64,000 nt of DNA, taken from contig JANYDK010000132.1 of assembly GCA_025363655.1 (NCBI GenBank), forward strand, positions 1-64,000, given 5' to 3'. Source of the stretch: Deltaproteobacteria bacterium (GTDB lineage Bacteria; Myxococcota_A; Polyangia; Polyangiales; JADJMO01). The notes below the pieces were generated by a model, which was not told the origin of the DNA, made no database searches, and worked only from the letters and a program-made list of their open reading frames with translations. The position numbers and the translations under genes are program-made. How positions within the stretch are numbered: the stretch's first letter is position 1; every line of letters starts with the position of its first letter. This document shows, piece by piece, positions 8,563 through 62,462 of this stretch.

Positions 8563-8578
8563 CCCCCCTCTCCTCTTG

Positions 8579-12678: not shown

Positions 12679-12680
12679 CC

Positions 12681-18228: not shown

Positions 18229-18321
18229 GAACCGTGGGTCTTCGCGTAATCACGCGAGGCCGGCAAGTGCCGCAGCAAATGCATCCATCGGTTATGCATC
18301 TGGCCCGACGACCGCGGTCGG

Positions 18322-28197: not shown

Positions 28198-28278
28198 GCG
28201 ATCGATGCTACGAGCACACGAAAGCCTGCGAAAGCCGGTGATCCGTCCGATCACCCTCGTCACATCGAGGTGACGGTG

Positions 28279-34824: not shown

Positions 34825-34874
34825 TTGGCATCACCCAACAGCGAGGGCGCGGGCGAGTGGTACGTTCCATTGCC

Positions 34875-36776
34875 ATGAATCGTCGTGCGACCTGCGCAGC
34901 GGTGCTCATCGCCGCAACGGCATTCACGCTCGGCTGCGGCGACTCCGGCGAGACGCCCGACCTCGACAGCGCCCCACCGCTCGACACCGGCGCCGAAACC
35001 GAGGTCTCCGGCCCTCTCGACGCAGCGGACGCGACTCCTCTCGCCGACGTCGACGGCGGCGAAACCGGCCCGAAAATCGGTGCCACGACCCCGTTCGTCA
35101 GCTTCGAGGCGGAAGATGGCAAGGTCGGCGGCGGGGCGGCCATTCGTCGACTGACGAGCGCGCCGACGACGCCCTATTCCAGCCCGGAGCTCGAGGCCTC
35201 GGGGCATGCCTACGTGTCACTCACCGCCGTCGGCGATTACGTCGAGTGGACCAACGACACGGGCCGCGCGCTCACTGCGATCGACATTCGCGCTTCGATT
35301 CCCGACTCGCCCGGCGGGGGTGGCACGAGCGCGACGCTCGGCCTCTACGTCGATGGCATGCTCCGTCAGCAGGTGAACCTCAGCTCGCGCCAGACGTGGC
35401 TCTACGAGAACGACGGCAACTACAACGGCAACGATCAAGACCCGACGCACGGCTCGCCGCGCGTCTTCTACGACGACGTCCACCTCTTCATTGCCGGCGC
35501 TCCGCTCGGGCCCTCGTCGCGCATTCGTCTCCAAAAAGACGGGTCCAACGTCGCCGCGTTCTACCACGTCGACGTCGTCGATCTCGAGACGCCGAAGCCC
35601 GCGACGGCCAAACCGACCGACGGGCTCTCGATTCTCGACTACGGCGCACGCGCGAACGATCCGAGCTTCGACAGCACCAAGGCGATACAGGCCTGCATCG
35701 ACGACGCTCAGAAGATGAAGAAGAGCGTCTTCATCCCGCCGGGGACGTTCTATCTGCTGACCACGTCGGGCCTCCATGCGAAGGGGATCACCCTGCGGGG
35801 TGCAGGCGCTTGGTACAGCACCATCTATCGAAGAGTGCCGCTTCCCAACCCGAGCCCGCTCGGCGCGCTCTTCGAGCTCGACTCCTGTCATGTCAGTGAT
35901 CTCGCGCTCGACTCCAACGCCACCAGCCGCGCCACCATCGACGGCGCCGGCGGGGCGATGGACACCACGGGCACCGGCTGGACCGCCGACGGAATCTGGA
36001 CGCAGCACACGCTCTCCGGCTTCTGGGCGTCGGGCATCTCGGGATTGGTCGAGAATTGCCGGCTCCTCGGCATTTGGGCCGACGGCTGCAACCTCAACAA
36101 CGTCAGCCTCACCGGCACCGTCGGCAACGACCTCACCGCGCGAAACAACTTCGTCCGCGGCACCGGTGACGACGCGATGGCCATCAACTCCGTCGATTTC
36201 AATGGCACGCAGCACTACACGCCGATGTCCCACGCGGTGTTCGAGAACAACACCACCATCGCGGCGTGGGGCGGGAAAGGCCTCGCCATCTACGGCGGCA
36301 GTGACCACGTCGTCCGCTACAACTACACCAGTGACACGGCGCGCTACATCGGATTGGGCGTCGGCAAGTTCGGGGTCAATGGCTCGGAGTTGAGGTCGGC
36401 GACGGTGACCGACAACGTCGTCGTGCGCTGCGGCGGAAATGCCTATTCGCAAGGGCAACCGGCGTTGCACATCGGCAATGGCGGTGATGGAAAAGAAGTC
36501 GGCAGCGTCGCTGGTGCCATCATCGCGCACAACCTCGTTCGCGATGCGCTCTACGACGCCGTCGGATTCTCGACCTCGACCGCCATCGTCTTCGACGGCA
36601 ACACGATGACGAGCCCAGGTCGCGATGGCGTGGTCATTTCACCGCCGTTTTATCCGGCGCCCACCGGCTCGGCGACGTTGACGGGGAACGTGGTGACGGG
36701 AGTTGCGGCCGGGCACCTCGCGTTTCGAAACGCCTCGAGTGGCTACGTGGTCAGTGGCGGCGGCAACAGCTGGTGA
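34875..36776 (+). CDS. Lipoprotein with CBM-like domain and GH87-like beta-helix
   Basis: 633 residues from the ATG at 34875. The lipobox is TLGC (Cys21), with an acidic linker to about residue 72. A carbohydrate-binding-like domain follows (SFEAEDGKVGGGAAIRRLTS to about 235), and then a parallel beta-helix starting with LSILDYGARANDPSFDSTKA, the pectate-lyase-superfamily entry motif. ADGCNLNNVSLTG and FVRGTGDDAMAINS lie in the likely active-site turns. The combination resembles family 87 glycoside hydrolases (mycodextranase/alpha-1,3-glucanase); that assignment is from memory. It could attack fungal or bacterial alpha-glucans. The stop directly abuts the stop of the convergent next gene. Confidence 0.75.
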   Translation: MNRRATCAAVLIAATAFTLGCGDSGETPDLDSAPPLDTGAETEVSGPLDAADATPLADVDGGETGPKIGATTPFVSFEAEDGKVGGGAAIRRLTSAPTTPYSSPELEASGHAYVSLTAVGDYVEWTNDTGRALTAIDIRASIPDSPGGGGTSATLGLYVDGMLRQQVNLSSRQTWLYENDGNYNGNDQDPTHGSPRVFYDDVHLFIAGAPLGPSSRIRLQKDGSNVAAFYHVDVVDLETPKPATAKPTDGLSILDYGARANDPSFDSTKAIQACIDDAQKMKKSVFIPPGTFYLLTTSGLHAKGITLRGAGAWYSTIYRRVPLPNPSPLGALFELDSCHVSDLALDSNATSRATIDGAGGAMDTTGTGWTADGIWTQHTLSGFWASGISGLVENCRLLGIWADGCNLNNVSLTGTVGNDLTARNNFVRGTGDDAMAINSVDFNGTQHYTPMSHAVFENNTTIAAWGGKGLAIYGGSDHVVRYNYTSDTARYIGLGVGKFGVNGSELRSATVTDNVVVRCGGNAYSQGQPALHIGNGGDGKEVGSVAGAIIAHNLVRDALYDAVGFSTSTAIVFDGNTMTSPGRDGVVISPPFYPAPTGSATLTGNVVTGVAAGHLAFRNASSGYVVSGGGNSW

Positions 36777-44699: not shown

Positions 44700-47114
44700 T
44701 CAGAACAACACCTTCACCGGCGCCGTTCGGTTGCCCGTCGTCGCACCGTCGCCGATCTCGCTGCTTCCGCTGCCGCCCCAGCACCAAACGCTGCCATCGG
44801 TCTTGAGACCGCACGAATGGTAGTGCCCGACGGCGAGGCTGGTCACTCCAGAGAAGCCGGTGACGACCTTCGGCGTCCACGTCTTGGTGGTCGTGCCGTC
44901 ACCGACTTGTCCGTAGGTGTTGTAGCCCCAGCAGACGACCGTCGCGTCGAGGAGGCGCGCGCAGACGTGGGCATATCCCGACTTGAGCTCGACGACGTTG
45001 GACAAGTTGCCGGTGGTCACGCCGACGACCGGTCCCGGGGTGAGTCGGTCGGGAGTGGTGAGGCCGCTGCCGTCGCCTGTCGCTCCATAGAAGCTGTCGC
45101 CCCAGCAGCTGACGCCGCCGCCCGTGGTGCGCGCGCACACGTGGTAGTAGCCCATCGCGATTTCGACCACGCCGGTGAGGCCAGCGACCGGCGTCGGCGA
45201 AAGGACGTTGGTGCCCGAGGTGCCGTTGCCCTGTTGCCCATCGGAGTTGTTGCCCCAGCACCAGAGCGTGCCATCGGTCTTGCGTGCGCAGGTCGATTGA
45301 TAACCGGCGCGCACTTCGACGACGCCGGTCAATCCGGGGACCGTTTGCGCGGTCAGCTGCTGCACGGTCGAGCCGTCGCCGAGCTGGCCCGAGGAGTTGC
45401 TTCCCCAGCATTTGACGGTGCCGTCGGCGAGCAGCGCGCACGCGTGGTTGTAGCCGGTGGCGACTTGTTTGGCGGTGGTGACGCCGGTGACGGCTTGCCA
45501 GCTCGCGCTTCGTGACGTCGTGGTGCCGTCGCCGAGGATGCCGCTCGAGTTGTAGCCGAGGCACTTCACCGTGCCGTCGGTCTGCGTCGCGCAGGAAGCG
45601 TAGAAGCCGGAGGTCGAGACATCGACGGTGGTGGCCGTCGTGAGGAGGATGTTCGACGGCTTGCTACGCGTCGTCGTCGTGCCGTCGCCGAGCTGACCAT
45701 CGCCGTTGGCGCCCCACGCGCGAATCGTCCCGTCGCTCATCGTCGCGAAGGTGACGTACGAGTAGAAACCGCTGGTGATGCCCGTCACCTTCAAGCAAGT
45801 ACCCGCTGTGCACCCGCCGAGCCCGCAGACGTTGCCGCAGGCTCCGCAGTTGTTCGCGTCGGTCTTCAGATTGAGGCAGAAATCGCCGCAGGCCGACGTT
45901 CCACCGGCGCAGACGAGCGTGCAGCTACCGGCGACGCACGACTTGCCGTCGAGACAGATGGTGCCACAACCGCCGCAGTTTTTCGGATCGACGAGCGTGT
46001 CGCGACAAGTGCCGCTGCACGAGGTGAGCGAGCCGCAGGTGCCGGTGGCAGGCACGCACGCGCTTCCGGTGCAGGCTTCGGTCGACGTGCAGACGTGACC
46101 GCAGGTGCCGCAGTTGGACGCATCGCCCGTGAGATCACTGCAGCTCGGCGTGGCTACGCCGCACTTGGTGAGACCGCCGCCGCACGAGAGCGTGCAAGCG
46201 CCGCCACTGCAGACTTCGCCGCTGCCGCAGACCTTGCCGCAGGTGCCGCAGTTGGTGCTGTCGACGGCGACGTCTTTGCACGTGCCGCTGCAGTTGGTGA
46301 ACGCGCCGCAGGTGGTGGTGCAGGTGCCCGCGCTGCAGACCTGTCCGGCTGCGCAGGCCTTTCCGCAAGCGCCGCAGTTGGCGAGGTCGACCTTGGTGTC
46401 TTTGCAAGTGCCGCTGCAGTTGCTGAGGCCGCCGCACGAGACTTCGCAGACGCCCGCGTTGCAGACCTGTCCGCCGGTGCACGCTGTGCCGCAAATGCCG
46501 CAGTTGTCCTTGTCGTAGCGGGTGTCGCGACAGACGCCGCCGCACTTGGTGAGCCCGCCGCCGCAGCTGACGCCGCACTTGCCCGAGCTGCAGACCTCGC
46601 CGGTCGCGCACGCGCTCGAGCAGATGCCGCAGTTGCGGTTGTCGCTGCGGAGATCGCGGCAGAGGCCGCTGCACTCGGTGAGACCGGCGCCGCACGAGAG
46701 CTGACACTTGCCGGTGCTGCAGACCTCGCCGCCGCCGCACTTCACGTCGCACGCGCCGCAGTGGCGCAAATCGCTGTCGAGCGTGACGCATTCGCTGCCA
46801 CAGAGAACCTGTCCGGACGGGCACGTCGAGCCGAGCTCGGCCGCGTCGCTGCCGTCGTCGCCCGAAGCGTCGCGCGCGTCGTCGCTCGAGGTCTCGGGGG
46901 CGGTGTCGGGCACGAGGGCCGAGTCGCGTGCGTCGAGGGCGCTGGTGTCGGCGACGTCGCTCGACGCGTCGGCTCCCGTATCACCAACATCGATGTGCGT
47001 GTCGGTGCCGGCGTCGATTCCCGGTGCATCGGCCCCGTCTCCACTGCTGCAACCGACCACGCTGATCATCGCGCAGAGCGCGCCAGAGCTCACCCAGACA
47101 AGCTTCTTCGTCAT
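44700..47114 (-). CDS. Lipoprotein with eight Cys-rich repeats and a seven-repeat RCC1 propeller
   Basis: 804 residues from the ATG at 47114, which has GGAGG 5 nt upstream. The lipobox is VVGC (Cys22), with an acidic Asp/Ala/Ser linker to about residue 90. Eight Cys-rich units follow, each with NCG-x-CG-x-x-C-x-x-G-x-x-C, similar to what is catalogued as MXAN_6577-like domains (recalled). From about residue 470 seven RCC1 repeats appear, of the form GT-x-x-CWG-x-N-x-x-G-QLGDG-T; seven blades make a closed propeller. This is a sister architecture to the kelch lipoproteins next door, with a different propeller. An ATG at 47147 overlapping the kelch stop is a less likely start. Confidence 0.9.
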   Translation of the reverse strand: MTKKLVWVSSGALCAMISVVGCSSGDGADAPGIDAGTDTHIDVGDTGADASSDVADTSALDARDSALVPDTAPETSSDDARDASGDDGSDAAELGSTCPSGQVLCGSECVTLDSDLRHCGACDVKCGGGEVCSTGKCQLSCGAGLTECSGLCRDLRSDNRNCGICSSACATGEVCSSGKCGVSCGGGLTKCGGVCRDTRYDKDNCGICGTACTGGQVCNAGVCEVSCGGLSNCSGTCKDTKVDLANCGACGKACAAGQVCSAGTCTTTCGAFTNCSGTCKDVAVDSTNCGTCGKVCGSGEVCSGGACTLSCGGGLTKCGVATPSCSDLTGDASNCGTCGHVCTSTEACTGSACVPATGTCGSLTSCSGTCRDTLVDPKNCGGCGTICLDGKSCVAGSCTLVCAGGTSACGDFCLNLKTDANNCGACGNVCGLGGCTAGTCLKVTGITSGFYSYVTFATMSDGTIRAWGANGDGQLGDGTTTTRSKPSNILLTTATTVDVSTSGFYASCATQTDGTVKCLGYNSSGILGDGTTTSRSASWQAVTGVTTAKQVATGYNHACALLADGTVKCWGSNSSGQLGDGSTVQQLTAQTVPGLTGVVEVRAGYQSTCARKTDGTLWCWGNNSDGQQGNGTSGTNVLSPTPVAGLTGVVEIAMGYYHVCARTTGGGVSCWGDSFYGATGDGSGLTTPDRLTPGPVVGVTTGNLSNVVELKSGYAHVCARLLDATVVCWGYNTYGQVGDGTTTKTWTPKVVTGFSGVTSLAVGHYHSCGLKTDGSVWCWGGSGSSEIGDGATTGNRTAPVKVLF

Positions 47115-47143
47115 CACGTCCTCCAAAATGGCTCTGTGCGCGC

Positions 47144-48862
47144 TCATGGCCGATAAATGGCGCCGCTGGTGAGATACCCCGAGAGGTAATCGCTGGTCGA
47201 TCCACCCCAGAGGATGGCCTCGCGACCCGTCCAAACGGCAGTGGCGCGACCGCGGGCGCCGGGCGCTCCCGTTTCGTCGATGGGCGTCCAGGCGCCGGTG
47301 CTCGGATCGAACGAGCCAAATCCGTCGAGCGGCGTGCTCGACGACGAAGTGCCCTGTCCGCCGTAGACGAAGAGCTTTCCGCCCCCGAACCAGGCAGCGC
47401 TGTTGTAGCGCTTGTTGCCCGAAAGGAAGAGCAAGTCACCCGGCGTGGGGATCGCCGTCCAGCCGACGCTCGGCGTGTAGTACGCGCCGTTGTTCTGCGC
47501 GGTGCTCGCAGTCGAGGTGGTGCGTCCGCCGAAGAGGAAGAGCGATTTGCCATCGAAGGCAGTCGCCGAATCTTGCCTACCGTCGTAGGCCGTCGCCGGG
47601 GGATCGGAGAACTTGACCCAACTCTTGACCAGCGGATCGTAGCGAGCGCCGTCGACGAGACCGACGCTGACGTTGCGACCCCCGAGGATGATCATCTCGG
47701 TGCCGTTCCACGCGAACGCAGGGTCGGCGCGTCCGGCGATGGGCGCGGCAGGGATGGCCGTCCAGGTGTCGGTCGCCGGGTTGTACGCGGCGCCATCGGC
47801 GGTGACCGAGCTGCACGAGAGGCTCGAGCCGCTGGTGCATCCGCCCCACACGAGGAGCTCGCTGGTGGTGGTCGACCAAACTGCCGCCGACCAGAAGCGC
47901 GCGCTCAGCGGCGAGGTCGACATCGAAGTCCACGAGCCTGCGCCGCTCGCGCCGGCAGGATCGAAGATGACGCCGTCCTTGTAGGCGGTGGAGCTGCTGT
48001 CGCGACCGCCGAAGACGAGCATCTTCGAGCCGGTCCACACCGCCATCGCGTTGCGACGCCCGGCCGACATCGCCGAAGGTGCCGCCGGCATCATCGCCCA
48101 CGTGTCGCTCGCGAGATCGTAGATCGCGCCGTCGGTCTTCACGCTCGGACTGAGGCCGTATCCGCCCCAGATCATCAGCTTGCTGCCGGTCCAGAGGCCG
48201 ACGTTCCAGACGCGCCCGCCGAACGTGCTCGGAGGCGCCGCCATCGGCAGCCAGCCGCGGGGAATGCCGCACTCGCTGAAGGTCGACCAGGTGCATTTGT
48301 CGGAGCACGTGCGGGTGCGCACCTCGGCGGCGACCGAGCACGACGCGGTGGTCGATTCGCTGGTGCCCGGATCGCAAGGACCTGCTCCCGCGCAGACGCC
48401 CGTGACCCAGGTGCAGGTCTTCGAATCGCAGAAATCGGTGGCTTTTCCGCAGCGATCACAGTCGCTGACGCGCTTCTCGCCGATCTTGCATTCGACGTCG
48501 CCGTGCTCGCCGGTGCAGTCGGTGAACGACGTGAAGTAGCCCTCGGAGAGGCAGAAACGCGATTGGCTACCGCAGGCGCCGCACGCGCGGGTCTCGGTGG
48601 CGCCGGGGACGCACGAGGTCGCGTCGGCCGGGCGCGTGTCCTTCCCCGCGGTGTCGATCACGCTGTCGGGGCGCGTATCGGCGACGTCGGGAACACTGCT
48701 GTCGAGGCCGCCTTCGGACGCGAACGAGTCGACGACGGCTGAATCGCCCGTGACGGTGGGCGTGCTCTCGTCGCTCGTCGCGCAGGCGGGGAGGCAGCTC
48801 GCCACCGCGAGCAAGATCAGCGTGAGCTCGTGTTTGGCGGGAATGCTTCGAAAGGTCTTCAT
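47144..48862 (-). CDS. Modular lipoprotein: acidic linker, Cys-rich domain, seven kelch motifs
   Basis: 572 residues from the ATG at 48862. The lipobox is LPAC (Cys27). Acidic linker, then Cys-rich domain with CGACGSQSRFC and CDRCGKATDFC units, ending at WSTFSEC with IPRGW at the joint. Seven kelch motifs follow (NVGLWTGSKLMIWGG to TAVWTGREAILWGG). It resembles the 28279-29997 product most closely (same length, same RGW joint). It lies 11 nt after the 220-residue linker/Cys-rich protein and 29 nt before the RCC1 protein, so the three probably form an operon. Confidence 0.85.
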   Translation of the reverse strand: MKTFRSIPAKHELTLILLAVASCLPACATSDESTPTVTGDSAVVDSFASEGGLDSSVPDVADTRPDSVIDTAGKDTRPADATSCVPGATETRACGACGSQSRFCLSEGYFTSFTDCTGEHGDVECKIGEKRVSDCDRCGKATDFCDSKTCTWVTGVCAGAGPCDPGTSESTTASCSVAAEVRTRTCSDKCTWSTFSECGIPRGWLPMAAPPSTFGGRVWNVGLWTGSKLMIWGGYGLSPSVKTDGAIYDLASDTWAMMPAAPSAMSAGRRNAMAVWTGSKMLVFGGRDSSSTAYKDGVIFDPAGASGAGSWTSMSTSPLSARFWSAAVWSTTTSELLVWGGCTSGSSLSCSSVTADGAAYNPATDTWTAIPAAPIAGRADPAFAWNGTEMIILGGRNVSVGLVDGARYDPLVKSWVKFSDPPATAYDGRQDSATAFDGKSLFLFGGRTTSTASTAQNNGAYYTPSVGWTAIPTPGDLLFLSGNKRYNSAAWFGGGKLFVYGGQGTSSSSTPLDGFGSFDPSTGAWTPIDETGAPGARGRATAVWTGREAILWGGSTSDYLSGYLTSGAIYRP

Positions 48863-48873
48863 CGTCGGCTTCC

Positions 48874-49536
48874 TCACAGGCAATCGCTCCAGTCGCTCCA
48901 CTCGCAGCTGTCGGAACAGGTCCGCTTCTTCGACTTGGTCGAATCGAGGCAGGTGCCGGTCTGCACTTCGACCGAACCGGCCGCGCAACCCTTCTCGCCG
49001 GTGCAGGTGCCGGGGACCCATGCGCAGGTCGCGTCGCAGGTCCGCGGCCGGGTTCCGCATCGCCCGCAAGCGACGGTGTCGGCTCCACCGGGAACGCAGG
49101 CGCCGATTTCGCCGCTGCAAATGCCGTAGTCGAGCCAAGTCTTGGTGCTGTCGCAGAGGCGCTTGCGCGTACCGCACTTGCCGCACCCTTCGCTCTCGAC
49201 GGTGCCGGGAACGCAGCTGCTCGGTGAGGTGTCGTGCGCGTCGGCGCGTGCGTCGGTGCCGTCGCGTGCATCGCGCGTATCGCTCGCGTCACTCGCGTCC
49301 ATCGGATCGATCGCGGTGTCGTGGCCGCCGTCGGGCAAGCTGCTGTCGAACGCGTCGAGCGCTACCTCGGACGAATCGCTGCCCGCGTCGCTGCCGCCGT
49401 CGAAGGTGTCGATGATGGAAACATCGAACGAGGTTCCAGTGTCGCCATCGCCTTCTGGGTCACTCGTGGAGCTACAAGCGATCGGCGCGAAGAGAAACAT
49501 CCAGGCAAACGGCGCAACTCTACTTCGGAGCGACAT
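48874..49536 (-). CDS. Stand-alone acidic-linker/Cys-rich lipoprotein (no propeller)
   Basis: 220 residues from the ATG at 49536. The lipobox is PIAC (Cys21). An acidic linker reaches about residue 105, then three Cys-rich units (CGKCGTRKRLC, CGRCGTRPRTC, CEWSDWSDC) end the protein. The stop falls exactly where the relatives at 30030 and 47144 switch from the Cys-rich domain to kelch motifs, one or two residues after the final Cys. It is therefore a natural one-domain version or a clean truncation at a domain boundary. It is the first gene of the 44700-49536 minus-strand group. Confidence 0.85.
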   Translation of the reverse strand: MSLRSRVAPFAWMFLFAPIACSSTSDPEGDGDTGTSFDVSIIDTFDGGSDAGSDSSEVALDAFDSSLPDGGHDTAIDPMDASDASDTRDARDGTDARADAHDTSPSSCVPGTVESEGCGKCGTRKRLCDSTKTWLDYGICSGEIGACVPGGADTVACGRCGTRPRTCDATCAWVPGTCTGEKGCAAGSVEVQTGTCLDSTKSKKRTCSDSCEWSDWSDCL

Positions 49537-49967
49537 AGGGACCTTCGTCGGAAGATATACTTCGAACAACTGCCGTTCGCGAACTCCGTCGGAGCGCGAA
49601 GCGAGCGGACCCTAGCGCAACATTCGACTTTCGACAGCAACTCTCGCACTTATCGACACAGTGCCGTCCCGTTCGGATTTGGGAGTCTCGCTACGAGACT
49701 GTCGGTCTTTGCAAGGAAGATTTACGAGACAGTCGCCCACGGGGTCATTTCGGATGCATGAAACGAAAATGCCACGGCGTCAGAAGCGCATTTGCCCGGG
49801 TGCGCTCAATGCCGCACCAGAGTAGAGGGATAGAAAACCAATCCACGTCATGCTCGGTGTGTCCGCGCCGGACTGACAATCATGCCCCACGTTGCCTCGT
49901 GCAGAGAAAGCTGCCAATGAGTTCTTCCATTGGTCGGCGACGAGCCGTGCCGACGAAGGATTCGCCC
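49537..49967. promoter_or_regulatory. 431-nt divergent regulatory region with inverted and direct repeats
   Basis: A rather AT-rich region by local standards, with no gene. It holds a perfect inverted repeat at 49684-49700 (AGTCTCG-CTA-CGAGACT) and a partial second copy at 49723-49735 (TACGAGACAGTCG), the two half-sites spaced 31 nt. Promoters for the minus-strand lipoprotein group and the plus-strand vWA lipoprotein should be here. Confidence 0.5.
49684..49735. promoter_or_regulatory. Candidate operator: 17-bp inverted repeat plus displaced half-site
   Basis: AGTCTCG and CGAGACT pair around CTA at 49684-49700; TACGAGACTGTCG at 49692-49704 is repeated with one change at 49723-49735. The 31-nt spacing equals about three helical turns, which suits a regulator binding twice on one face. 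Confidence 0.4.
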
Positions 49968-51161
49968 ATGCGTCAGCTCTCTTCGAGACGTCGAAACGTC
50001 TCTGTTTTCTGCCTCGTTGCTGGCCTTGGCTCGAGCGCCTGCAGCGCCGACAAGGGCTCGAGCCCCGGCCCGGGCTCGCTCGTCAGCGACACCGGTCTTC
50101 CCGCGGACACCGGTGCTCCAGACACCGGCTGGCTCGAAGAAGACACCGCGCCGCCGGCCTTCGACGTCGCAGGCGAGACCGGCATGGACACCGCCCTCGA
50201 GCCCGACGCCGGCTGCGCCACGGCTACCGCGTCCGGGGTCAAGCAGCCGGTCGACATCATCATGGTGATCGATCAGTCCGGCAGCATGAGCGACGAAATC
50301 GTCCAGGTGAAGGCCAACATCAACAAGCTCTCGACGTATCTCGCGGCCACCGGCCTCGACTACCGCCTCGTGATGATCGCCGGCACCACGACTGGGTCCC
50401 TGCCGGTGTGCGTTCCGCCGCCGCTCGGAGGAGCCTCGTGCACCTCGAAGGCGCCGCGTTTCCGCGCCGTCGATCGGCACATCGAATCGTACGATTCGCT
50501 CAAATACGTGCTGCAAACCTACGACAGCACCGACGTCACGACCAAGTGGAGCGACGTGCTGCGGCCCGATGCGATGAAGGTGTTCATCCCCATCACCGAC
50601 GACGACGCGACCGACTCGTCGCTGGCGGTGCCGCGCAGCACCAGCTTCGACGACGCGCTTCTTTCGCGTGGAAAAGGCACCTTCGGCACCAAGTCGAAGC
50701 GCAAGTACGTCTTTTATCCGATCACCGGCGTGAGCCTGACCTCGACCAGCACGACATGCGCGACCGCCGTCAACGTCGGGCAGACCTACGTCGACTTGGC
50801 GACCCTCACCAAGGGAAAGCCGTTCTCCGTTTGCGAAACGAACTACGAGCCCGTCTTCAAGGCGATCGGAAAGGCGATTGCCACCACGGTGGCCTGCGAA
50901 ATCACCATTCCACCGCCGCCGTCGGGTGAGGCATTCGACCCGGGGAAGGTCAATGTGACACTCACCGATGCCTCGGGTCCTCACTCCGTTCCACAAGACC
51001 CTTCACTCGATTGCTTCGGTGGCGCCGACGGTTGGCAATACAACGCCGACAAGACGACGATCTTGCTGTGCGGCGAAGCGTGCTCGACGGCGAAGGCCGA
51101 TCCGACGGCGAAACTCGACGTCGAATTCGGCTGCGCGACGCACGTGAAGCCGCCGACTTGA
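49968..51161 (+). CDS. von Willebrand A-domain lipoprotein
   Basis: 397 residues from the ATG at 49968, with GAAGGA about 7 nt upstream. Lipobox SSAC (Cys25), followed by an acidic linker. The vWA domain begins VDIIMVIDQSGSMSDEIVQV, a canonical metal-ion-dependent adhesion site (D-x-S-x-S). TDDDATDS and similar loops supply other metal ligands. The C-terminal part contains several Cys and an EITIPPPPSG stretch. Such lipoproteins mediate protein-protein contact at the cell surface. It is convergent with the next vWA lipoprotein, 6 nt between stops. Confidence 0.85.
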   Translation: MRQLSSRRRNVSVFCLVAGLGSSACSADKGSSPGPGSLVSDTGLPADTGAPDTGWLEEDTAPPAFDVAGETGMDTALEPDAGCATATASGVKQPVDIIMVIDQSGSMSDEIVQVKANINKLSTYLAATGLDYRLVMIAGTTTGSLPVCVPPPLGGASCTSKAPRFRAVDRHIESYDSLKYVLQTYDSTDVTTKWSDVLRPDAMKVFIPITDDDATDSSLAVPRSTSFDDALLSRGKGTFGTKSKRKYVFYPITGVSLTSTSTTCATAVNVGQTYVDLATLTKGKPFSVCETNYEPVFKAIGKAIATTVACEITIPPPPSGEAFDPGKVNVTLTDASGPHSVPQDPSLDCFGGADGWQYNADKTTILLCGEACSTAKADPTAKLDVEFGCATHVKPPT

Positions 51162-51167
51162 GCTGAG

Positions 51168-52916
51168 TTACTTGGGTATCCCGCTCCCTGGTGGGACTTC
51201 GAATCCCACCAGGCGGCTGTCGAGCTTCACGCTACCGGGCATTCCCAAGACGTCGATGAAGGCGTTGAAGAACTGAGCCTCGGCTTTGGGCTTCACGGTG
51301 GTGTTGATTTTCGGAATGACCTCGAAGCAGACCGGTGTGCCGACGACGACGCTGAGGAACGTGTCCTTGACCCCGTCACCATCGGTGTCGTTCGCCCCGT
51401 GGGGAAGGCAGTCGGCGCCGTCGCCTTCTTCCATGGCCCGCAGCGCTTGGATGAATTGGGTAGCGTCGACGCCGTCGGCGTTGGTCGGATCGTTCGAGGG
51501 CACGGCGGTGACGTCGAATTGGCTGCCGACGCTGATGGCCTGAATCGCCTTGACGATGCTCGCGCTCACGCCGGCACCACTATTGTGCAGGAAATTGAGC
51601 CGACAAGACCCTCCCGGCCCGGTCGCCGCGCGCCCTTCGCCGTCGATTCCAGTGCAACAAGGGCCGGCGCCGGCGGTCGGACATTTACCGAAGGCAGCCT
51701 TGGGAATGTGGCTCTTGGAGCCGTCCGAGAGGTCGTTCGCCTGGTCTTCGGGGGCGGAGTAGGCGCCGTTGGTGATGTCGACGAAGCGAGCGTTGGTGCG
51801 GACGAACTCCTTCTTCAGATCGGCGACCGATGGCGGCGAAATGACGTCGGAACCGTAAGGGTCTTTGGCCACGTCGTGCCAGCTGACGTCGGTGATCTCG
51901 ACGACCACGGGGAGCGAGCCCGGCCGGAAGTCGACGCCGCCGAAGGTGCCTGGTTTGGGCTTGTGGAGGGGGACCGAGCCGCCGGTCCATTGCAGCTGTT
52001 TGCCATTGAGGAGATGCCACATCGAGGAGACCTGGGCCTCGGGGCCATCGGAGCCGCAGTGGAGCTCGAGCTTGTTGGCAGCCGCCTGGGCAATCGTCAG
52101 GCTGGTGGTGACGACTTGAATCACGCCAACTGGAAGATCGCCGGGGAGCGAGCCACCGCAGCCCGACGAACCGTAGCCGCCGACGGGATAGTCGTCGTGG
52201 TAGGCAATCGCCATCCCGACCGAGGGAATCGCCTTCACGAGCGATGGCAGCAACGTGGTCGTGATGTTGGTCTTGAGGTTGGTGAGCGAGCCGCCCATCG
52301 AGCCGGTCGTGTCCTCGGAGATGGCGACGTCGACCTGCTTGATGTTGGTGCCGAATTCGAGCACGTCGCGGTCGGGAATCGGCGCGCCGCCGTAGGGCTC
52401 GACGAAGAAGAAGTCGCGTTTGGGGCCTGTTTTCCGCAGTTGAACGATGGTCAGCGTGGTGTCGCCGCGCGCCCCTTCGGCCTCCGCGTGCACCACCGTG
52501 GTGACGCCGACGGCGGCGGTCGGGAGCGCGCTCGCCGAGGTGAAGTCGGGGCCGGCGAAGGTGCCGAGCGCGGGATCGTCGACCGCGAGCGTGACGGTGA
52601 GCGAGACGTCCCGCGACGTGCCATCGGCGAGATTGAGCGTGGCTTTGTAGCTCAGTGTGGCGGGCGTCGCCGGCGTGGTCGCCGTATCGACGTAAATGGT
52701 CGCATGGGCGGGCTCGAGAGCGATGTTTTGAAAAACGGGAGTCGGCGGGTCGGTCTCTCCGAGATCGCCGTCGACGACAGGGTTGGTTTCCGGAAGGTTT
52801 CCGGAATCGAGCCCGACGGAGGGCTGCTGGTCATTGGTCTTGGAGGCGCCGCAGGCAACCAGCGCGAGGGACGTATACGAGGCCAGTGCTCCGCGCGTGA
52901 GCATTCGAAGGTGCAT
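51168..52916 (-). CDS. von Willebrand A-like lipoprotein
   Basis: 582 residues. Lipobox ALVAC (Cys22), acidic/Pro linker, then a beta-sandwich (Ig-like) domain at about 60-160. A vWA-like domain begins with IKQVDVAISEDTTGSMGGSL near residue 190; the adhesion-site motif is D-T-T-G-S-M rather than D-x-S-x-S, so metal binding may be weaker. Several Cys and a CCTGIDGEGR segment lie near the end of the domain. It faces the other vWA lipoprotein gene tail to tail, but the two are not close paralogues outside the vWA fold. Confidence 0.75.
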   Translation of the reverse strand: MHLRMLTRGALASYTSLALVACGASKTNDQQPSVGLDSGNLPETNPVVDGDLGETDPPTPVFQNIALEPAHATIYVDTATTPATPATLSYKATLNLADGTSRDVSLTVTLAVDDPALGTFAGPDFTSASALPTAAVGVTTVVHAEAEGARGDTTLTIVQLRKTGPKRDFFFVEPYGGAPIPDRDVLEFGTNIKQVDVAISEDTTGSMGGSLTNLKTNITTTLLPSLVKAIPSVGMAIAYHDDYPVGGYGSSGCGGSLPGDLPVGVIQVVTTSLTIAQAAANKLELHCGSDGPEAQVSSMWHLLNGKQLQWTGGSVPLHKPKPGTFGGVDFRPGSLPVVVEITDVSWHDVAKDPYGSDVISPPSVADLKKEFVRTNARFVDITNGAYSAPEDQANDLSDGSKSHIPKAAFGKCPTAGAGPCCTGIDGEGRAATGPGGSCRLNFLHNSGAGVSASIVKAIQAISVGSQFDVTAVPSNDPTNADGVDATQFIQALRAMEEGDGADCLPHGANDTDGDGVKDTFLSVVVGTPVCFEVIPKINTTVKPKAEAQFFNAFIDVLGMPGSVKLDSRLVGFEVPPGSGIPK

Positions 52917-53012: not shown

Positions 53013-54323
53013 TCATGAGCGGCGTCGTCGAGCCAACAGCCCCAGGGCACACACCCCGAGGGTCAGCGCCAACGGCGTTGGGCCGATCGGAGCGTAACTA
53101 CAATATCCACCGCCACCGCGGCCGCCCGCTTCCTCATAGGCGTCGTAGAAGGTGCGCGTCGGCTTCGGCGTCACACAGCGAATGTCGGAGATGACTCCGG
53201 GATTGCCCCAGCTGTCGATCGCCGCGACGCCGACCGCGTAGCTCTTCTCGTTGTCGAGACCGGTCACCTGCGCGCTGGTCGAGCCCGGGCCGACGAAGGA
53301 CCCGGCGTATTTCGCGAGCTCACCGCTCGGGAGAATGCCAGGCGCAAACCACGGAGGGAACGCGCCGACGCACGTGAAGTCGGTGGCGACAGCGGCCGCG
53401 TCTCCCGTGCTCGTATCCGTGGTGTCCGTGGTGGTGCTCTTCGCGTCGGCCGCGTCGGCCGCGTCTCCCGTGTCTCCAGTATCGGCGCTCGCGTCGGTGG
53501 GCGTCGCGGAGTCCGGAGATATGGTCCCTCCATCGAGGTGACCATCGCCGAACAGATCGTATGGCACGACGTAGGTTTGGTAACCCTGCAGGGTCGCGGT
53601 CGCGCCGCTGCTCGCGCTCCAATCGATCTTCGCCAATCCATTGCCGCCGCCACCCTTGATGCTCGTCGGCGCGGACGGGCCGGCGATGTCGAAGCCCATC
53701 GGCACGAGCGCCTCGAAGGCGTCGCCGCCGGTCGTCACGTCGGTCTCGCCGTTGAACGGCAAGAGGCTGATGTAGAACGTCCTCGGCTCCATGCTCGCGT
53801 TCGTCGTGCACTCGGTCGCGCGATCGAACGCATCCGCCACCGCGGAGACGTCGTAGCTGACGTCCTTCTTGCTCGTGGGGCTCAGCGCCGCCACGAAGGC
53901 GACGTCGGGGATGCGAACGAGCTGGTGGTCGGCGACGCTCGAATAGGCAATCGTCGCGACGTGATAGCAACTCTTGGCGTCGCCGACGCGCGCCGATGAA
54001 TTCGCGCAGCTGCCCCCCGTGAGATTGACCCAGAGTTGGAGCGACGACGGCGTCACCCAATCTGCGGCAGCCGTGGGAAACGCGAATTTGAATTGATAGT
54101 AGGTTTTGGTGCTCAGGCAGTCATCGCGGTTGGTGCCGGTGTTCGGGGCCGCCGGCCCCTTGGTCGGGGTGGCTTTGCGCGCAGTTCCTTCGCGTTGCGG
54201 GTAACTGGCATCCAAGGTGATGGTCTCGGCTGCGGCAAGAGATGCCAATGCCGTGATCGAGAGCAAAGTGCCAATGACGACGGCGAAGCGGGCGAGAGAC
54301 GGGCGAGTCGATCGTGCGTGCAT
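53013..54323 (-). CDS. MYXO-CTERM-like secreted protein
   Basis: 436 residues from the ATG at 54323. A signal peptide ends near AAAE at about 32. The body has a DNRLR-like domain (TLDASYPQREGTARKATP) and a fibronectin-like region (SAPTSIKGGGGNGLAKIDWS), with an Asp/Thr/Ala stretch at about 280-310 encoded by 9-bp units. It ends in GGGGYCSYAPIGPTPLALTL, then a hydrophobic span and ARRRRS. Cys, hydrophobic span and terminal Arg cluster match the MYXO-CTERM sorting tag, which directs export to the cell surface in myxobacteria. Confidence 0.8.
   Translation of the reverse strand: MHARSTRPSLARFAVVIGTLLSITALASLAAAETITLDASYPQREGTARKATPTKGPAAPNTGTNRDDCLSTKTYYQFKFAFPTAAADWVTPSSLQLWVNLTGGSCANSSARVGDAKSCYHVATIAYSSVADHQLVRIPDVAFVAALSPTSKKDVSYDVSAVADAFDRATECTTNASMEPRTFYISLLPFNGETDVTTGGDAFEALVPMGFDIAGPSAPTSIKGGGGNGLAKIDWSASSGATATLQGYQTYVVPYDLFGDGHLDGGTISPDSATPTDASADTGDTGDAADAADAKSTTTDTTDTSTGDAAAVATDFTCVGAFPPWFAPGILPSGELAKYAGSFVGPGSTSAQVTGLDNEKSYAVGVAAIDSWGNPGVISDIRCVTPKPTRTFYDAYEEAGGRGGGGYCSYAPIGPTPLALTLGVCALGLLARRRRS
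53443..53478 (-). repeat. 9-bp tandem repeat in acidic segment
   Basis: Four units of GCGTCGGCC and variants on the plus strand encode DAA/DTG steps in the acidic segment of the MYXO-CTERM-like protein. Confidence 0.75.
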
Positions 54324-54513
54324 CGGCGATGCGACACAGCAGCCGTCGTGCCACGAGCATCGTCCTCGACGACGCGCGTCGCCCCTCTGCATTGCCTGTC
54401 GGATTCCCTGGCGAGCTGCGCGAGAGCACGTTCGGGTCGACTGCCATTTTTTCAGCGGGCAGCGCGCCGGTTGTCGATCGTGCGCGACGCTTGCGAGAGC
54501 GCAAACGAGCCGA

Positions 54514-55038
54514 CTACTCGATCTTCTCCGGATGAATCAGCTTCCCATCCGGCGTCAGTCCTGCGCCTTCCATCGCCTGCGCTTGCGGCACCTTGTCGAC
54601 GGGCGGCCGCTCTTCGATGCGGTCGACGATGATCTCGGTCGCGGCGCCGAGGCCCAAGGTCGAGACCTCGACGCGGAGGTGGTGGCCGGGATCGGAGCCG
54701 CGCACCTTGAGGTTGGGGAAGATGGTTCCGTTGGCGCCGACGACGCCTTGCGGATCGTCGCTCTGTTGGCGGACGAAGTTGGCCACCTCGTCGAGCGGGC
54801 GAGCGACGGTGACGTAGATGGCGGTGCCGAAGCGAGCGTCGATGCGGGCTTCGCGAGGAAGCACCAGATCGTGCGCGCGCTGCACGCCAGGCGGCGCCTC
54901 ACCCGCGGCGAGGCGATCGGGCGGGGCGCTCGAGGCCGCTGCGCTCGGTTGGGGCGAAGGCGCAGGCGCGCGCTTACAGCCCGCCACGAGGGCGAGACCG
55001 GTGACGAGCGCTGCGGTTATTCGATGCTCGCTGCCCAC
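54514..55038 (-). CDS. Small lipoprotein at the end of the pilus operon
   Basis: 174 residues from a GTG at 55038 inside the pilY1 3' end (22-nt overlap). Lipobox LVAGC (Cys21), then a Ser/Ala/Pro linker and a domain with FGTAIYVTVARPLDEVANFV and TIFPNLKVRGSDPGHHLRVE. It ends in PEKIE. No family was recognised. Overlap with pilY1 implies it is made with the minor pilins and may help pilus tip assembly or anchoring. Confidence 0.75.
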   Translation of the reverse strand: MGSEHRITAALVTGLALVAGCKRAPAPSPQPSAAASSAPPDRLAAGEAPPGVQRAHDLVLPREARIDARFGTAIYVTVARPLDEVANFVRQQSDDPQGVVGANGTIFPNLKVRGSDPGHHLRVEVSTLGLGAATEIIVDRIEERPPVDKVPQAQAMEGAGLTPDGKLIHPEKIE

Positions 55039-58000
55039 GTATCGATCTTGGTGACGGAGACCGGCGGCACGAGTGTACGCGTATACGTCTTCGTCGAGGT
55101 ACCCCCCACGCCGCCTCCGCCGGTGGAAGGTGATTTCGGGCCGGTTTGCGCGACCAACTGGAAGTCGCCGGTGTTGATGCCGGTGACGGTCTGGTGGGAC
55201 GAGGTCGCGCCGGTGTACGGATCGGTCGTCGCGCTCGAGGCGGTGTCGACGCACGAGGGACGCTGCGTGACGCCCGCGCCGAAGACGATGGTGCCCGGGT
55301 CGAGCTGGAGACAACGGAAGAAGTTGCCGAGCCCGGGGCGGGCGTCGGTGTTGGGAACGCTCGGCGGGCAGGTGCCGACGATGACGTCACCAGGCTGCTG
55401 CTGCAGGCGCGCGCGCGGGAGGCCGGGCGAGCCGGTGCCAGGCTCGGTCTCGGCGTAGTCGACGCCCCAGATCGTGCCCTGACCTTTGAGGCACGCCGAC
55501 GCCGAGGCGACGTCGGGCGTGAAGGTCGAGAAGTAGAGATTGCCGCTGAAGAGCGAGAGCGGACCGGTCGGGGTGACGCCGCCGGTGAAGGGGATCTTCC
55601 AGTTCGTGACCGTCGACGCCGTCGTCCCCGAGAGCGTCGTCGTCAGCTGTTCGCTCACCGACCACATGTTGTTGACGTTGACCGCGGCGAAGTTGTTCTG
55701 GTCGCCGGTGGCGTAGATCACGGTGATGCGGCCGAGACGATCGACGGTGAGCACTGGGGCGAGCGAGACCGCTTGGGGCGGCTGCGACGTCGCGGTGAAG
55801 GTGGTGTTGATGTAGCTGTCGTGGAAGAGGCCGAACGTCCAGTTGGTCGGGTTGGTGTCGGTGAAATCGGCCTTCCAGAGGTCGCCGTCTTCGTCACCGA
55901 CGAACGCGCGGGTGGTGACGGCGCCAATCGCGGCGGGATAGATGGCGACGGCACCGGTGAGGGGCGCGTCGATGTTGGCGTAGGTGCCGACGATGCTCGA
56001 GGCGACGCCCGCGGTCTGGAAGGCGGTCACCGGCGAGTCGGTCTCGGCCGGATGATCAGGCGTTTTTCCCAGCGGATCGTTGCGGAAGGTGCGGAGGATC
56101 TTGCCGTCGTAGAGGCGCACGACGGTGAACGAGTTGCCCGCGCCGCGCCAGCAGCGCGTCTTCGTGCGAACGCCCGCTTCGATCGGCGTCGTCCAACGGT
56201 TGCACTGCGTCGGCCAGGTGGCCGAGAGCGTGCCTTCGCCACCGGGAAGGAAGGCGACCGGCGTCTCGACCGGCGAGCCACCCGCCTCGGCATAGTAGAC
56301 GGTGCCGATCGCCGGCTTGGCCGGGTAGGTGCCGAAGAGATTGCGATCGCCGCCGACCGAATCTTTGATCGTCGTCAGCTGCCAGAGAAACTCGGGGCGG
56401 GCCGGGTTGGTGACGTCGACGGCGTAGAAGCCGCGACCGGTGGTGAGCCCACCGACGGCGATGGTGCGCCAGTTGGCGACGCCACCCTTCGCTTGATCGC
56501 GCGTGCGTCCCCAAGGCGGCGTCGAGCCTCCGCCAATGCCGAAGGCGACGTCTTTCACCACCGGCGCCATGTCGAGGAGGAGCGCGTGCGCGCCGTCGTA
56601 CTGCTTGGGAATGCTCGGCAGCACCGCCGGCGGGATGAACGCCCAGAGCTCCGGGTTGGAGGTGTCGGTGAGGTTCGTCTGGATGCCGTGGAGCATGCCG
56701 TCGTTGGTCGCGACGAGGAGCATCGGGAGGCGCGTGGACTGGAGACGACGAAAGTCGGTGTACGACTCGTCACGGAGGAAGGCATCGGGCACGCCGACGC
56801 TGACGGGGGTCGCGTGGTAGATGTCGCCGAACGCGAGGCCGACGCGGTCGAGCCAGGTCACGCGCGTCGCCGGCAGGCCGAGCGCATAGTTGAGGTACTT
56901 GAGCTTGCACTGCGCCGGACTGGGCTCGTCCGAGCACGAAGAGGAGGTGATGTTCATCGCCTCCGGGGTCATGTTCGAGCTCGAGGTGAAGCCCGTCCCC
57001 GCGCCCTCGATCGACACGCCCTGTTGGTGCGAGACGCCGTCGTTGTCCGCGGTGGAGATGTTGCGGCGAATGCTCGTCGTCGAGTTGTCACCGCTGGAGG
57101 CCAAGACGCCGTTCCACGAATAGAAGTTGCGGTTGGTCGTCTTCGCGATGACCGTGCCGAGATCGTCGTCTTGCGCGGCGGAGAACGGGATCGCTTGCGG
57201 CGTCGTGCCCGAGCCCGCGGTGAGCACGCACTGGTAGCGGATGCGCTCGAGCGTGCCGGTCCAGGCGGTGAACGGATTGACCTTGAACGAAGAGCGGAAC
57301 TCGTTCTGCGACGAGTTGGCGCCGGTGCTGCTGGCGACCCCGGCGAAGACCGGGACGGTGCGGGAGGTCGAGGTGGTCGCCGTCGCCGCGGCCATCGCCT
57401 TCACGAGCGCAGCGCGGAGCGTGTCGGCAGTGTTGGCGATGTACGCCTTGCCGGTATTTCCGTTGTAGGCGATTTGATTGAGCGTGCAGCAGGGGTAGCG
57501 CGGATCACCGGGAAGCACCGTGGTCCCACAGCCGCCAGTCACCGGATCGACCGCCGAAGAAGTGCAATCGACCGCAGCGCCGGCCGCGTCGGTGAGCGAG
57601 AAGCCGACGACGAAGGTCGAGACCTGCGGCTTGCCCGACGGCGGGTGCGAGAGCTCGCGAGCGATGTCCTCCGCGCGACGCGACGGGCAGCAGCCCTTGC
57701 TCGCCGTCGTGGCGGTGCAGCCGCTGACAGTGGTGCTGTTCCACACCGATGCGAGCGAGGGATCGGCGTTGTCTTCGCACTTCTCCGACGTCGTCGGCGC
57801 GTCGCGGAGGTCGGAGTTGGGGAAGCCGTCGGTGATGAGGATGATGAAGTTGCCGCGGCAGGAGATCGACGGATCGACCGTGCTCGGACCGTCGGGATCG
57901 GTCCACATGTACTGCTGCGCGTCGGCGAGCATCGGACCGATCGGCGTCGCGCCGTACGGACGCGAGGCGAGCATCGCGTAACGAATGCGATCGTTGACCG

Positions 58001-58889
58001 CACGGAGCGCCGCGGTCGAGTCGTCGCCCGCGAAGCCGACGAGCGGACCTTCCCACGGCGCAGCGCTCGGGTTGCGGGCGCCGTTCTCGTAGATGTGCGT
58101 CGCCGGCGCGGTCGAAGGATCGCACGCCGCCGGCCAGCCGTACTGCGGCTTGATCGTGCCCGTGCCCTTCCAGCCGGGAAAATAGCTCCAAAGGCCCGCC
58201 TGACCGCTGACGAAGTCGTGACCGGTGCCGGTCCAACCGCTGCCCGAGTCGGGCGCGTTGTCGAACGTCATGAGACCGAAGCGCGCCTGATCACGGAAGG
58301 TGTCGAGGACGCCGAGGCCGTCGGTCTGGTAGTCGGTCGACGCGCAGGTGCCGAGCGCTTGGAGGAAGCTGCCGTTCCACTTGCGCCAACCGAAATCGCT
58401 GATGCCCCAGGTGGTCCAGTCGTTGGGCCACGTCGCGGTCTTGGTCAGGCTGTTGGAGCCGATCGCGCACGAGTTGGAGAGCGGCCGATAGTGATAGAGG
58501 CCGTATCCGGCGTCGTAGGGGTTGGCGCCGCCGAGGCCGAATTCGTTCTTGAAGTCGTCCTTCGAACGATCGACCGCGAGGAGCGTGTAGTTCTTGATCG
58601 AGCCGCCGAGCACCTCGAGCGCGGAGACCCAGCGGTTTCGGGCGATGGTCGCGGTCGCCTTGCTCCCGGTCGACGGATCGAGCGTGGTGCCGTCGTCACG
58701 AAGCGGCAACGTGCCGTTCGGCATGCGCTCCATCGAGCCCGAGGTGTCGAGGAGGATGAGGACGTTGGGAAGCGGCGGCGCGACATCGGACTGCGCCCGC
58801 GCGGTGCCGCTCAGCAGCACGGTGGCGGCGAGCGCTCCAAAGGGGAGCGCGCGATAGAGCAGGCCGTATTTTCTCTCTGCGCTCGTCAT
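55017..58889 (-). CDS. pilY1: PilY1-type pilus tip protein
   Basis: 1290 residues with a signal peptide ending near AQS (33). An N-terminal vWA domain has NVLILLDTSGSME, the metal-dependent adhesion site (48-53), and the rest of that domain spans about 400 residues. The C-terminal beta-propeller part carries FVGDEDGDLWKADF, the Asp-rich calcium loop typical of PilY1. PilY1 caps type IV pili with the minor pilins and acts in adhesion and assembly. It follows pilX by 56 nt in the minor-pilin operon. In Myxococcus several pilY1 clusters of this design exist and each supports pilus formation; here only one is visible. Confidence 0.95.
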   Translation of the reverse strand: MTSAERKYGLLYRALPFGALAATVLLSGTARAQSDVAPPLPNVLILLDTSGSMERMPNGTLPLRDDGTTLDPSTGSKATATIARNRWVSALEVLGGSIKNYTLLAVDRSKDDFKNEFGLGGANPYDAGYGLYHYRPLSNSCAIGSNSLTKTATWPNDWTTWGISDFGWRKWNGSFLQALGTCASTDYQTDGLGVLDTFRDQARFGLMTFDNAPDSGSGWTGTGHDFVSGQAGLWSYFPGWKGTGTIKPQYGWPAACDPSTAPATHIYENGARNPSAAPWEGPLVGFAGDDSTAALRAVNDRIRYAMLASRPYGATPIGPMLADAQQYMWTDPDGPSTVDPSISCRGNFIILITDGFPNSDLRDAPTTSEKCEDNADPSLASVWNSTTVSGCTATTASKGCCPSRRAEDIARELSHPPSGKPQVSTFVVGFSLTDAAGAAVDCTSSAVDPVTGGCGTTVLPGDPRYPCCTLNQIAYNGNTGKAYIANTADTLRAALVKAMAAATATTSTSRTVPVFAGVASSTGANSSQNEFRSSFKVNPFTAWTGTLERIRYQCVLTAGSGTTPQAIPFSAAQDDDLGTVIAKTTNRNFYSWNGVLASSGDNSTTSIRRNISTADNDGVSHQQGVSIEGAGTGFTSSSNMTPEAMNITSSSCSDEPSPAQCKLKYLNYALGLPATRVTWLDRVGLAFGDIYHATPVSVGVPDAFLRDESYTDFRRLQSTRLPMLLVATNDGMLHGIQTNLTDTSNPELWAFIPPAVLPSIPKQYDGAHALLLDMAPVVKDVAFGIGGGSTPPWGRTRDQAKGGVANWRTIAVGGLTTGRGFYAVDVTNPARPEFLWQLTTIKDSVGGDRNLFGTYPAKPAIGTVYYAEAGGSPVETPVAFLPGGEGTLSATWPTQCNRWTTPIEAGVRTKTRCWRGAGNSFTVVRLYDGKILRTFRNDPLGKTPDHPAETDSPVTAFQTAGVASSIVGTYANIDAPLTGAVAIYPAAIGAVTTRAFVGDEDGDLWKADFTDTNPTNWTFGLFHDSYINTTFTATSQPPQAVSLAPVLTVDRLGRITVIYATGDQNNFAAVNVNNMWSVSEQLTTTLSGTTASTVTNWKIPFTGGVTPTGPLSLFSGNLYFSTFTPDVASASACLKGQGTIWGVDYAETEPGTGSPGLPRARLQQQPGDVIVGTCPPSVPNTDARPGLGNFFRCLQLDPGTIVFGAGVTQRPSCVDTASSATTDPYTGATSSHQTVTGINTGDFQLVAQTGPKSPSTGGGGVGGTSTKTYTRTLVPPVSVTKIDTWAASIE

Positions 58890-58945
58890 GGTTTACCTCA
58901 CCACCTCTTCCAAATATCGAATCGAAGGCTCTCGCGCGCGCGTCG

Positions 58946-59659
58946 TCAGTAAATCGGACCGACGAAAAGGTGTCCGCGCGCACCCGTGAACGTCGCGCTC
59001 GGCCGCTCCGAGGCGTCGATCACGCCCATCACGCCACCCGGCTCGTCCTGGTAGATGACGCCGCTCACGGACATCGTCACGTCGAGGAATTGGGGGGCGT
59101 GGTCGTCTACGGACTCGCCCGGTTTGACGCGACCGACCAGCATCGGATCGGTGAACTCGACGTTGAAGCCACCCGCCATGGTGGTCATGCCGAGGCTGCC
59201 CGGAATGCCAGGGATACCAGGCCCCGACAACACCGGCCCTTGGAAGAGGACCATCCCTGCCCGGTTCTGGATGTCTGGGTCTCTGAGGTGATAGCAAGGC
59301 GGCATCGCCGTCGTCGGACCCGTGGCGCCGAGGCCGCCGTTGGCTTCGCAGAGGTCGCCCTTCTTGTTCAAGAGGCCGAGGTAGGCCTTGGGCGCGGTGC
59401 CGATTTCGCTCGTGACGGCGCGCGCGCCGTAGCCAGACACGACCTCGGAGACGTTGCGCTGGCGGAGGTAGCCGGCGGTACGCACTTCATAGCGCGAATT
59501 GCCGAGCGCCCAGGTGCCGATGGCCGAGAGGACGGCGATGACCATCAAGATGATGAACATCGTCGCGCCGCGCTCGTCGCTGCGGCGACGCCGGAGCCGG
59601 CGCCGGGCGGGGGCCGACCCATCGGGGTGGGTGCGGCGGGTGCGAGGGTGAATGCTCAT
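58946..59659 (-). CDS. pilX: PilX-type minor pilin
   Basis: 237 residues. After an Arg-rich N-terminus comes SDERGATMFIILMVIAVLSA, a PilX-like hydrophobic helix without the usual Glu at position 5. The body ends in RGHLFVGPIY. ATG overlaps the pilW stop (TGATG). Position between pilW and pilY1 is the usual one for PilX, which sits nearest the tip and helps initiate pilus assembly. Confidence 0.85.
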   Translation of the reverse strand: MSIHPRTRRTHPDGSAPARRRLRRRRSDERGATMFIILMVIAVLSAIGTWALGNSRYEVRTAGYLRQRNVSEVVSGYGARAVTSEIGTAPKAYLGLLNKKGDLCEANGGLGATGPTTAMPPCYHLRDPDIQNRAGMVLFQGPVLSGPGIPGIPGSLGMTTMAGGFNVEFTDPMLVGRVKPGESVDDHAPQFLDVTMSVSGVIYQDEPGGVMGVIDASERPSATFTGARGHLFVGPIY

Positions 59660-62275: not shown

Positions 62276-62462
62276 CGGGGGTGGTTTCAGCAAGCGATGT
62301 GCCGTTCCTGCGAGGGAGGCCCACCTCGATTTCCCCGAGAAACCAGGGCCACGCGATCGTGGCTTCAGCAACCGATTGCGGCGCTCCGCAGAAAGTTCAA
62401 GGTCGCTGAAGGTGAGATATCGGCGCTCGCGGCCCTCGACGACGTCGACTATTCCAACGCCG
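62276..62462. promoter_or_regulatory. Divergent region, pilus operon / DUF6599-like lipoprotein
   Basis: 187 nt between the first minor-pilin gene and the plus-strand lipoprotein. The promoter for the pilus operon should lie here. No clear sigma-54 -24/-12 site (the type used by many pilA promoters) was found by eye. Confidence 0.4.

Follow-up and report, generated by a model that had tools for sequence, protein, structure and literature searches.

The DNA examined here, a window of 64,000 nucleotides from a deltaproteobacterium of the order Polyangiales (contig JANYDK010000132.1; source assembly GCA_025363655.1, 9.0 Mb in 150 contigs), carries at positions 44700-49536 a row of three lipoprotein genes. 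With a probability of roughly 0.6, these are read as a conserved cassette of three outer-membrane lipoprotein genes, comprising a bare cysteine (Cys)-rich rod, the same rod tipped with a kelch propeller, and a rod of STIG1 repeats tipped with an RCC1 propeller, in which linker and rod would be the spacer on the anchor and the propeller would do the binding. The span extends from the stop codon of the RCC1 gene at 44700 to the ATG of the gene lacking a propeller (headless) at 49536. Each of the three has an ortholog in G003, a genome of another genus of the same family:

48874-49536, minus strand: headless lipoprotein, 220 amino acids, with a lipobox-like signal, an acidic linker, three Cys modules of the CPG/CGxCG type and a stop codon right behind module 3
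47144-48862, minus strand: kelch lipoprotein, 572 amino acids (Pfam kelch)
44700-47114, minus strand: RCC1 lipoprotein, 804 amino acids (Pfam RCC1 and STIG1, NCBIfam MXAN_6577-like)

The genes form an operon-like row, with 11 bases between the headless and kelch genes and 29 bases between the kelch and RCC1 genes; a scan for promoters and terminators gave nothing above chance. Lipobox-like endings (VVGC, PAC and IAC, read by eye) were found at the expected N-terminal place across the three genes, and the linkers placed after the lipobox-like Cys were acidic (21-26% aspartate plus glutamate, 3-5% lysine plus arginine). A sequence-only reading of the locus had described three genes sharing lipobox, acidic linker and Cys-rich modules; this held for the genes, the signals and the linkers, while the Cys modules were found to be common to the headless and kelch proteins only. 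Comparable acidic linkers (17-32% aspartate plus glutamate) were observed on seven other hand-picked lipoproteins of the window and genome, so the linker defines no family; neither it nor the lipobox is specific to the trio, as other lipoproteins of window and genome carry both.

Alignment of the Cys-rich parts separated two families, referred to here as the CPG rod and the STIG1 repeats. The former also occurs in two kelch genes elsewhere in the window (locus 1):

48877-49215, minus strand: Cys rod of the headless protein, three modules, 113 amino acids (alignment and AlphaFold2 model)
48266-48613, minus strand: Cys rod of the kelch protein, three modules, homologous to the headless rod
45792-46823, minus strand: eight STIG1/MXAN_6577-type Cys repeats of the RCC1 protein, unrelated to the CPG rod
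30030-31721, minus strand: first kelch lipoprotein of locus 1 (CPG rod and kelch), the counterpart in position of the headless gene (support 74/62)
28279-29997, minus strand: second kelch lipoprotein of locus 1 (CPG rod and kelch), the closest paralog of the kelch gene of the trio (44% identity over 565 amino acids)

The headless and kelch rods are 40% identical (E 1e-23) and share the module pattern C.PG....CG.CG...R.C, and alignment placed the same rod in both locus-1 kelch genes. When a profile of the CPG rod was run against the whole of its own genome (E 0.001), four proteins were recovered, all in this window. The Cys repeats of the RCC1 protein matched Pfam Stig1 (E 3.1e-34, 117.8 bits against a cut-off of 24.1) and the NCBIfam MXAN_6577-like model NF041328 (E 1.6e-85, 284 bits against a cut-off of 100), the only such matches among the trio, and showed no similarity to the CPG rod by BLAST (E 0.18) or by hhalign profile-profile comparison (probability 4.1%). 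The Cys modules of the RCC1 and kelch proteins thus have no common family, the outcome that the sequence-only reading had itself named as its refutation; the trio does not represent a single stalk bearing exchanged propellers, and the common stalk proposed for it was abandoned.

The CPG rod of the headless protein matched no Pfam or NCBIfam family. Its AlphaFold2 model, a confident one (mean predicted local distance difference test 94.2, predicted template-modelling score 0.58, 11 rows), consists of short strands and hairpins in series and gave no match in the Protein Data Bank (PDB) with Foldseek at E 0.001 (best E 0.031). The best structural alignment with VIA-align was to fibronectin type I modules (Z 2.9, root-mean-square deviation 4.1, 62 residues aligned), too weak for naming a fold such as a fibronectin type I or sushi array. 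A thrombospondin-type relation, suspected from a W..W..C pattern, was seen neither in the PDB profile search nor among the fold-search matches displayed, which does not exclude it.

The head layout proposed earlier (none, a kelch propeller of seven motifs, an RCC1 propeller of seven repeats) was borne out by Pfam, by blade count and by hidden Markov model (HMM):

47147-48265, minus strand: seven-blade kelch propeller (Pfam PF24681, E 1.8e-33; predicted fold)
44703-45788, minus strand: seven-repeat RCC1 propeller (Pfam, repeat count and HMM)

Each of the window's three kelch genes has seven blades (count and HMM), and among the 20 RCC1 proteins that could be placed in the genome 14 gave seven repeats with the same HMM, the others four to six. 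Seven is the ordinary count for these folds and no special feature. An RCC1 protein of G003 (L277:148-2484) has 12 repeats by HMM, which exceeds one propeller.

The kelch head of the trio scored above the PF24681 cut-off, and its predicted fold matched human kelch domains (KLHL12 and relatives; best E 4.9e-17). That the kelch proteins are instead anchored enzymes of the mutarotase or galactose-oxidase type is improbable: Pfam NANM was narrowly above its cut-off for the kelch protein of the trio (47.8 against 45) and all three kelch proteins matched NCBIfam YjhT weakly (E 4.2e-11 to 6e-19), but with 56.5, 42.6 and 68.4 bits they fell far under the cut-off of 256.35, so that assignment to the YjhT/NanM mutarotases was rejected, and the closest folds and sequences of the kelch heads were mostly peptide-binding kelch domains. 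The RCC1 head matched PF13540 (E 7.9e-51) and PF00415 (E 1e-32), with PF25390 also above its cut-off. Its closest solved sequences were UVR8, HERC2 and RCC1, UVR8 being the best; a UVR8-like photoreceptor was set aside, as the residues at what we take to be the motif tryptophans of UVR8 are tyrosines in this head.

The trio is kept in G003 in the same order and orientation (locus L122: headless gene 7304-7972, kelch gene ending at 9639, STIG1-RCC1 gene ending at 12313). Stalk and propeller were 62.9% and 48.2% identical for the kelch orthologs and 57.1% and 55.6% for the RCC1 orthologs, and the headless rod was 60% identical; rods and heads thus appear to have travelled together in the trio. 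When 22 open reading frames of the window (one of which was cut in the wrong frame and held stops) were compared with the 18-kb G003 locus, matches came from five genes of the lipoprotein family only, and thus the flanks differ. An ordered trio in another genus with different flanks looks like a portable, maintained unit, and local truncation does not account for the headless gene.

A kelch gene broken by a local stop that removed its propeller is accordingly a very improbable origin for the headless gene. The rods of the headless gene and the first locus-1 kelch gene do cluster together and separate from the rods of the second-position kelch genes (support 74/62; 200 of 200 bootstrap trees with ten core rows), which would speak for a lost propeller, and the comparison of an ancestral with a derived headless form gave an approximately unbiased test p of 0.498. 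However, the gene stops exactly at the rod border, the 11-base gap to the next gene leaves no room for kelch remnants, and rod-only proteins were also found away from contig ends in relatives (L140, L152 and L156); with a headless ortholog at the same place in G003 as well, the broken copy was rejected.

By strong rod matches, the trio was found in two of five family genomes (G000 and G003) and the locus-1 kelch pair in three of five (G000, G001 and G003); these assemblies are 87-96% complete, so absences are no proof, and each species was represented by one genome. Locus 1 is collinear on both sides between G001 and G003, which belong to the same genus: the match of positions 8553-13134 of the G001 locus (L120) resumes at 14332-18975 of the reverse complement of the G003 locus (L123; 80.2% identity), while the left block stops at 12308. 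The intervening 2 kb correspond to an RCC1 lipoprotein gene (12331-14310 of the L123 reverse complement), which G003 has behind its kelch pair and G001 lacks. The variation seen is thus a single RCC1 gene present or absent between two genomes of one genus, and it indicates that within a genus existing arrays gain or lose propeller genes. The variable gene (L123:4692-6671, minus strand) carries another Cys-rich stalk, with no STIG1 or CPG HMM match. A search of G001 for an empty site of the whole trio, guided by the flanking CheR-like gene, gave no clear syntenic position. G001 contains a homolog of the gene that lies upstream of the G003 trio, a CheR-like gene interrupted by five in-frame stops (C67:21645-22469; L334).

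The idea of interchangeable heads, which failed for the trio, did find support elsewhere and in a stronger form, on four kinds of stalk or base: the RAPTQI base, the stalks of an RCC1 pair (contigs C26 and C21), the STIG1 repeats and the CPG rod. Ten proteins picked by eye entered the shared-base comparison. The RAPTQI base, of about 150 residues and starting CR.PTQ[IV], occurs in eight proteins of the genome and was found in 22 of the 38 genomes searched, although in most of the distant genomes the matches were weak and partial (E about 1e-8 to 1e-3, mostly to the last 50 residues). Heads were inspected in all eight own-genome proteins and in five stronger ones from relatives (one from G003, two each from G002 and G017). 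The former bear kelch (two), RCC1 (two), PQQ (one) and SBBP-type (three) heads; Pfam SBBP was matched by one of the last three, the other two having no Pfam family and being 33-36% identical to the first (E 4e-51 and 6e-66). The relatives' heads were RCC1 (G003 and G002), FG-GAP (G017, E 3.7e-52) and beta-helix-like (G017, below the Pfam cut-off), and one G002 base bears a Cys-rich tail without a Pfam family.

Could such shared bases reflect chance or composition, with acidic linkers and Cys-rich stretches alike without common descent? The linkers are of low complexity and occur on many lipoproteins, and a further N-terminus, CRNLD, carried by two kelch and four RCC1 proteins, matches across head types at E 3e-10 to 3e-3 in matching pairs and is the weaker case. 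RAPTQI bases of kelch- and RCC1-bearing proteins, on the other hand, are 42-48% identical over 189-221 amino acids (E 2e-35 to 9e-47), and 47 of 163 columns are invariant in an alignment of four rows, which leaves this explanation with very little probability. The tree of 13 RAPTQI bases has long branches and is poorly resolved (one of ten inner branches starred).

In the RCC1 pair C26/C21 the stalks are 61.2% identical over 291 residues and the propellers 28.4%, each propeller being at or near the bottom of the other's ranking among 16 propellers; in a control RCC1 pair (C73/C39) the values were 61.9% for the stalk and 51.9% for the propeller, and a second control, the RCC1 orthologs of the window and G003, gave 57.1% and 55.6%. 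STIG1 repeats carry RCC1 heads in the source genome and G003 and kelch heads in Polyangium (L215 and L220 by Pfam, L232 by our own HMM). Within the order, the CPG rod bears kelch, FGE-sulfatase or NIDO heads, or none; ten CPG-rod proteins from relatives were scanned with Pfam, six of which had no family at E 0.001. VWA heads on this rod, suggested by DITGS-like motifs seen by eye, were not upheld: L130, the single candidate scanned, matched no Pfam family. Beyond the trio, exchange of heads over a common base is thus well supported. In the proteins scanned, the CPG rod and the RAPTQI base matched neither Pfam nor NCBIfam, and both could be defined as new families from these alignments.

The PQQ head on the RAPTQI base also bears on which side of the membrane the heads face. 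It is BamB-like (Pfam PQQ_2 E 1.9e-22; NCBIfam BamB E 7.6e-18, yet 64 bits against a cut-off of 285), and a lipobox alone gives no indication of membrane side; the heads might therefore face the periplasm, the proteins acting as scaffolds or in quality control of envelope assembly, as does the propeller lipoprotein BamB. This is considered unlikely, because about 20 RCC1 proteins in one genome together with many head types suit a repertoire better than a single machine, and long acidic linkers and disulfide rods would be unusual for assembly factors.

The cassette was compared with known systems. The nearest working model is TraA, the polymorphic myxobacterial outer-membrane exchange receptor, which has Cys-rich repeats proposed as a 'stalk' for its recognition domain and whose variable domain is only a distant PA14 homolog (PMC6372800). 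The likeness lies in a recognition domain proposed on a Cys-rich stalk in the same bacterial group. TraA combines a PA14-like variable domain with a MYXO-CTERM sorting signal, whereas the trio has a lipobox-like signal at the N-terminus, Cys modules of other kinds and propellers; sequence variation in TraA lies inside one domain, while here entire head classes differ. No Pfam match to PA14 was obtained at E 1 in the three trio proteins, and none carries MYXO-CTERM, as they end in the propeller or straight after the rod; without a PA14-like domain and C-terminal sorting signal they are not TraA members. BLIP-II, with an RCC1-type propeller, is described as a secreted bacterial binder (PMC9218822), which suggests that RCC1-type propellers can bind proteins. 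The window protein resembles this group in its seven RCC1 repeats and differs in its predicted lipid anchor and its STIG1 repeats, with no BLIP-II match at E 1e-6 among solved sequences. It resembles the MXAN_6577-like/STIG1 proteins in scoring above the NF041328 cut-off, but adds an RCC1 propeller, the family model spanning the Cys part only. The kelch protein shares seven blades and a KLHL12-like fold with kelch-domain proteins, from which it differs in its predicted lipid anchor and in a Cys rod that belongs to no Pfam or NCBIfam family.

Several neighbouring genes were also recorded. Adjoining the trio are a lipoprotein with an acidic linker and a weak Pfam VWA match (49758-51161, plus strand; E 0.011) and a further acidic-linker lipoprotein (51168-52916, minus strand); another, at 34719-36776 (plus strand), has a similar linker (26% aspartate plus glutamate) and a head that looks beta-helix-like by eye. 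Directly downstream of the locus-1 kelch pair lies a gene whose product looks by eye like an NHL-type propeller (27094-28263, minus strand). Two proteins (25496-27097 and 53013-54392, minus strand) have Gly/Cys-rich hydrophobic tails ending in Arg, which we take to resemble MYXO-CTERM. A gene PilY1-like by appearance, followed by pilin-like genes, occupies 55017-62860 (minus strand); myxobacterial PilY1 diversity is reportedly the subject of a study (PMC13190605). The nearest named relatives of the source organism are Myxococcota metagenome-assembled genomes, one of which is groundwater-derived.

Under the cassette reading, each protein would be exported by Sec, lipidated, transferred to the outer membrane and displayed outward, the acidic linker and disulfide rod serving as a spacer and the propeller as a binding, non-catalytic head, while the headless rod may space the headed proteins, partner them or compete with them. 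New pairs of head and base would arise through recombination between paralogs and where an existing array gains or loses a whole gene. Some points weigh against this reading. We infer the surface exposure and ligands of the trio proteins, and likewise their localisation and binding; the lipoboxes were judged by eye, and outer-surface sorting is putative. The trio itself shows no head exchange on one stalk, and co-inheritance of its heads and stalks suggests a stable function rather than rapid swapping. The tree of RAPTQI bases is too poorly resolved for a count of the exchanges.

Shuffling of domains is well known among bacterial surface proteins; among the items listed by a literature search, none was recognised as a description of this operon or of propeller exchange. 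What appears unusual is the replacement of one propeller class by another on a single unannotated base inside one genome, including a pair with discordant stalk and head histories. More tentatively, and with somewhat less than even odds, myxobacteria of this group may keep a surface repertoire in which propeller classes (kelch, RCC1, PQQ and SBBP, with FG-GAP in a relative) are exchanged on a few shared lipid-anchored bases for recognition of prey, kin or matrix, the trio being one stabilised set with a bare handle. If these proteins are surface receptors, a comparison of the head classes borne by one base would offer a test of how predatory, social bacteria diversify surface recognition.

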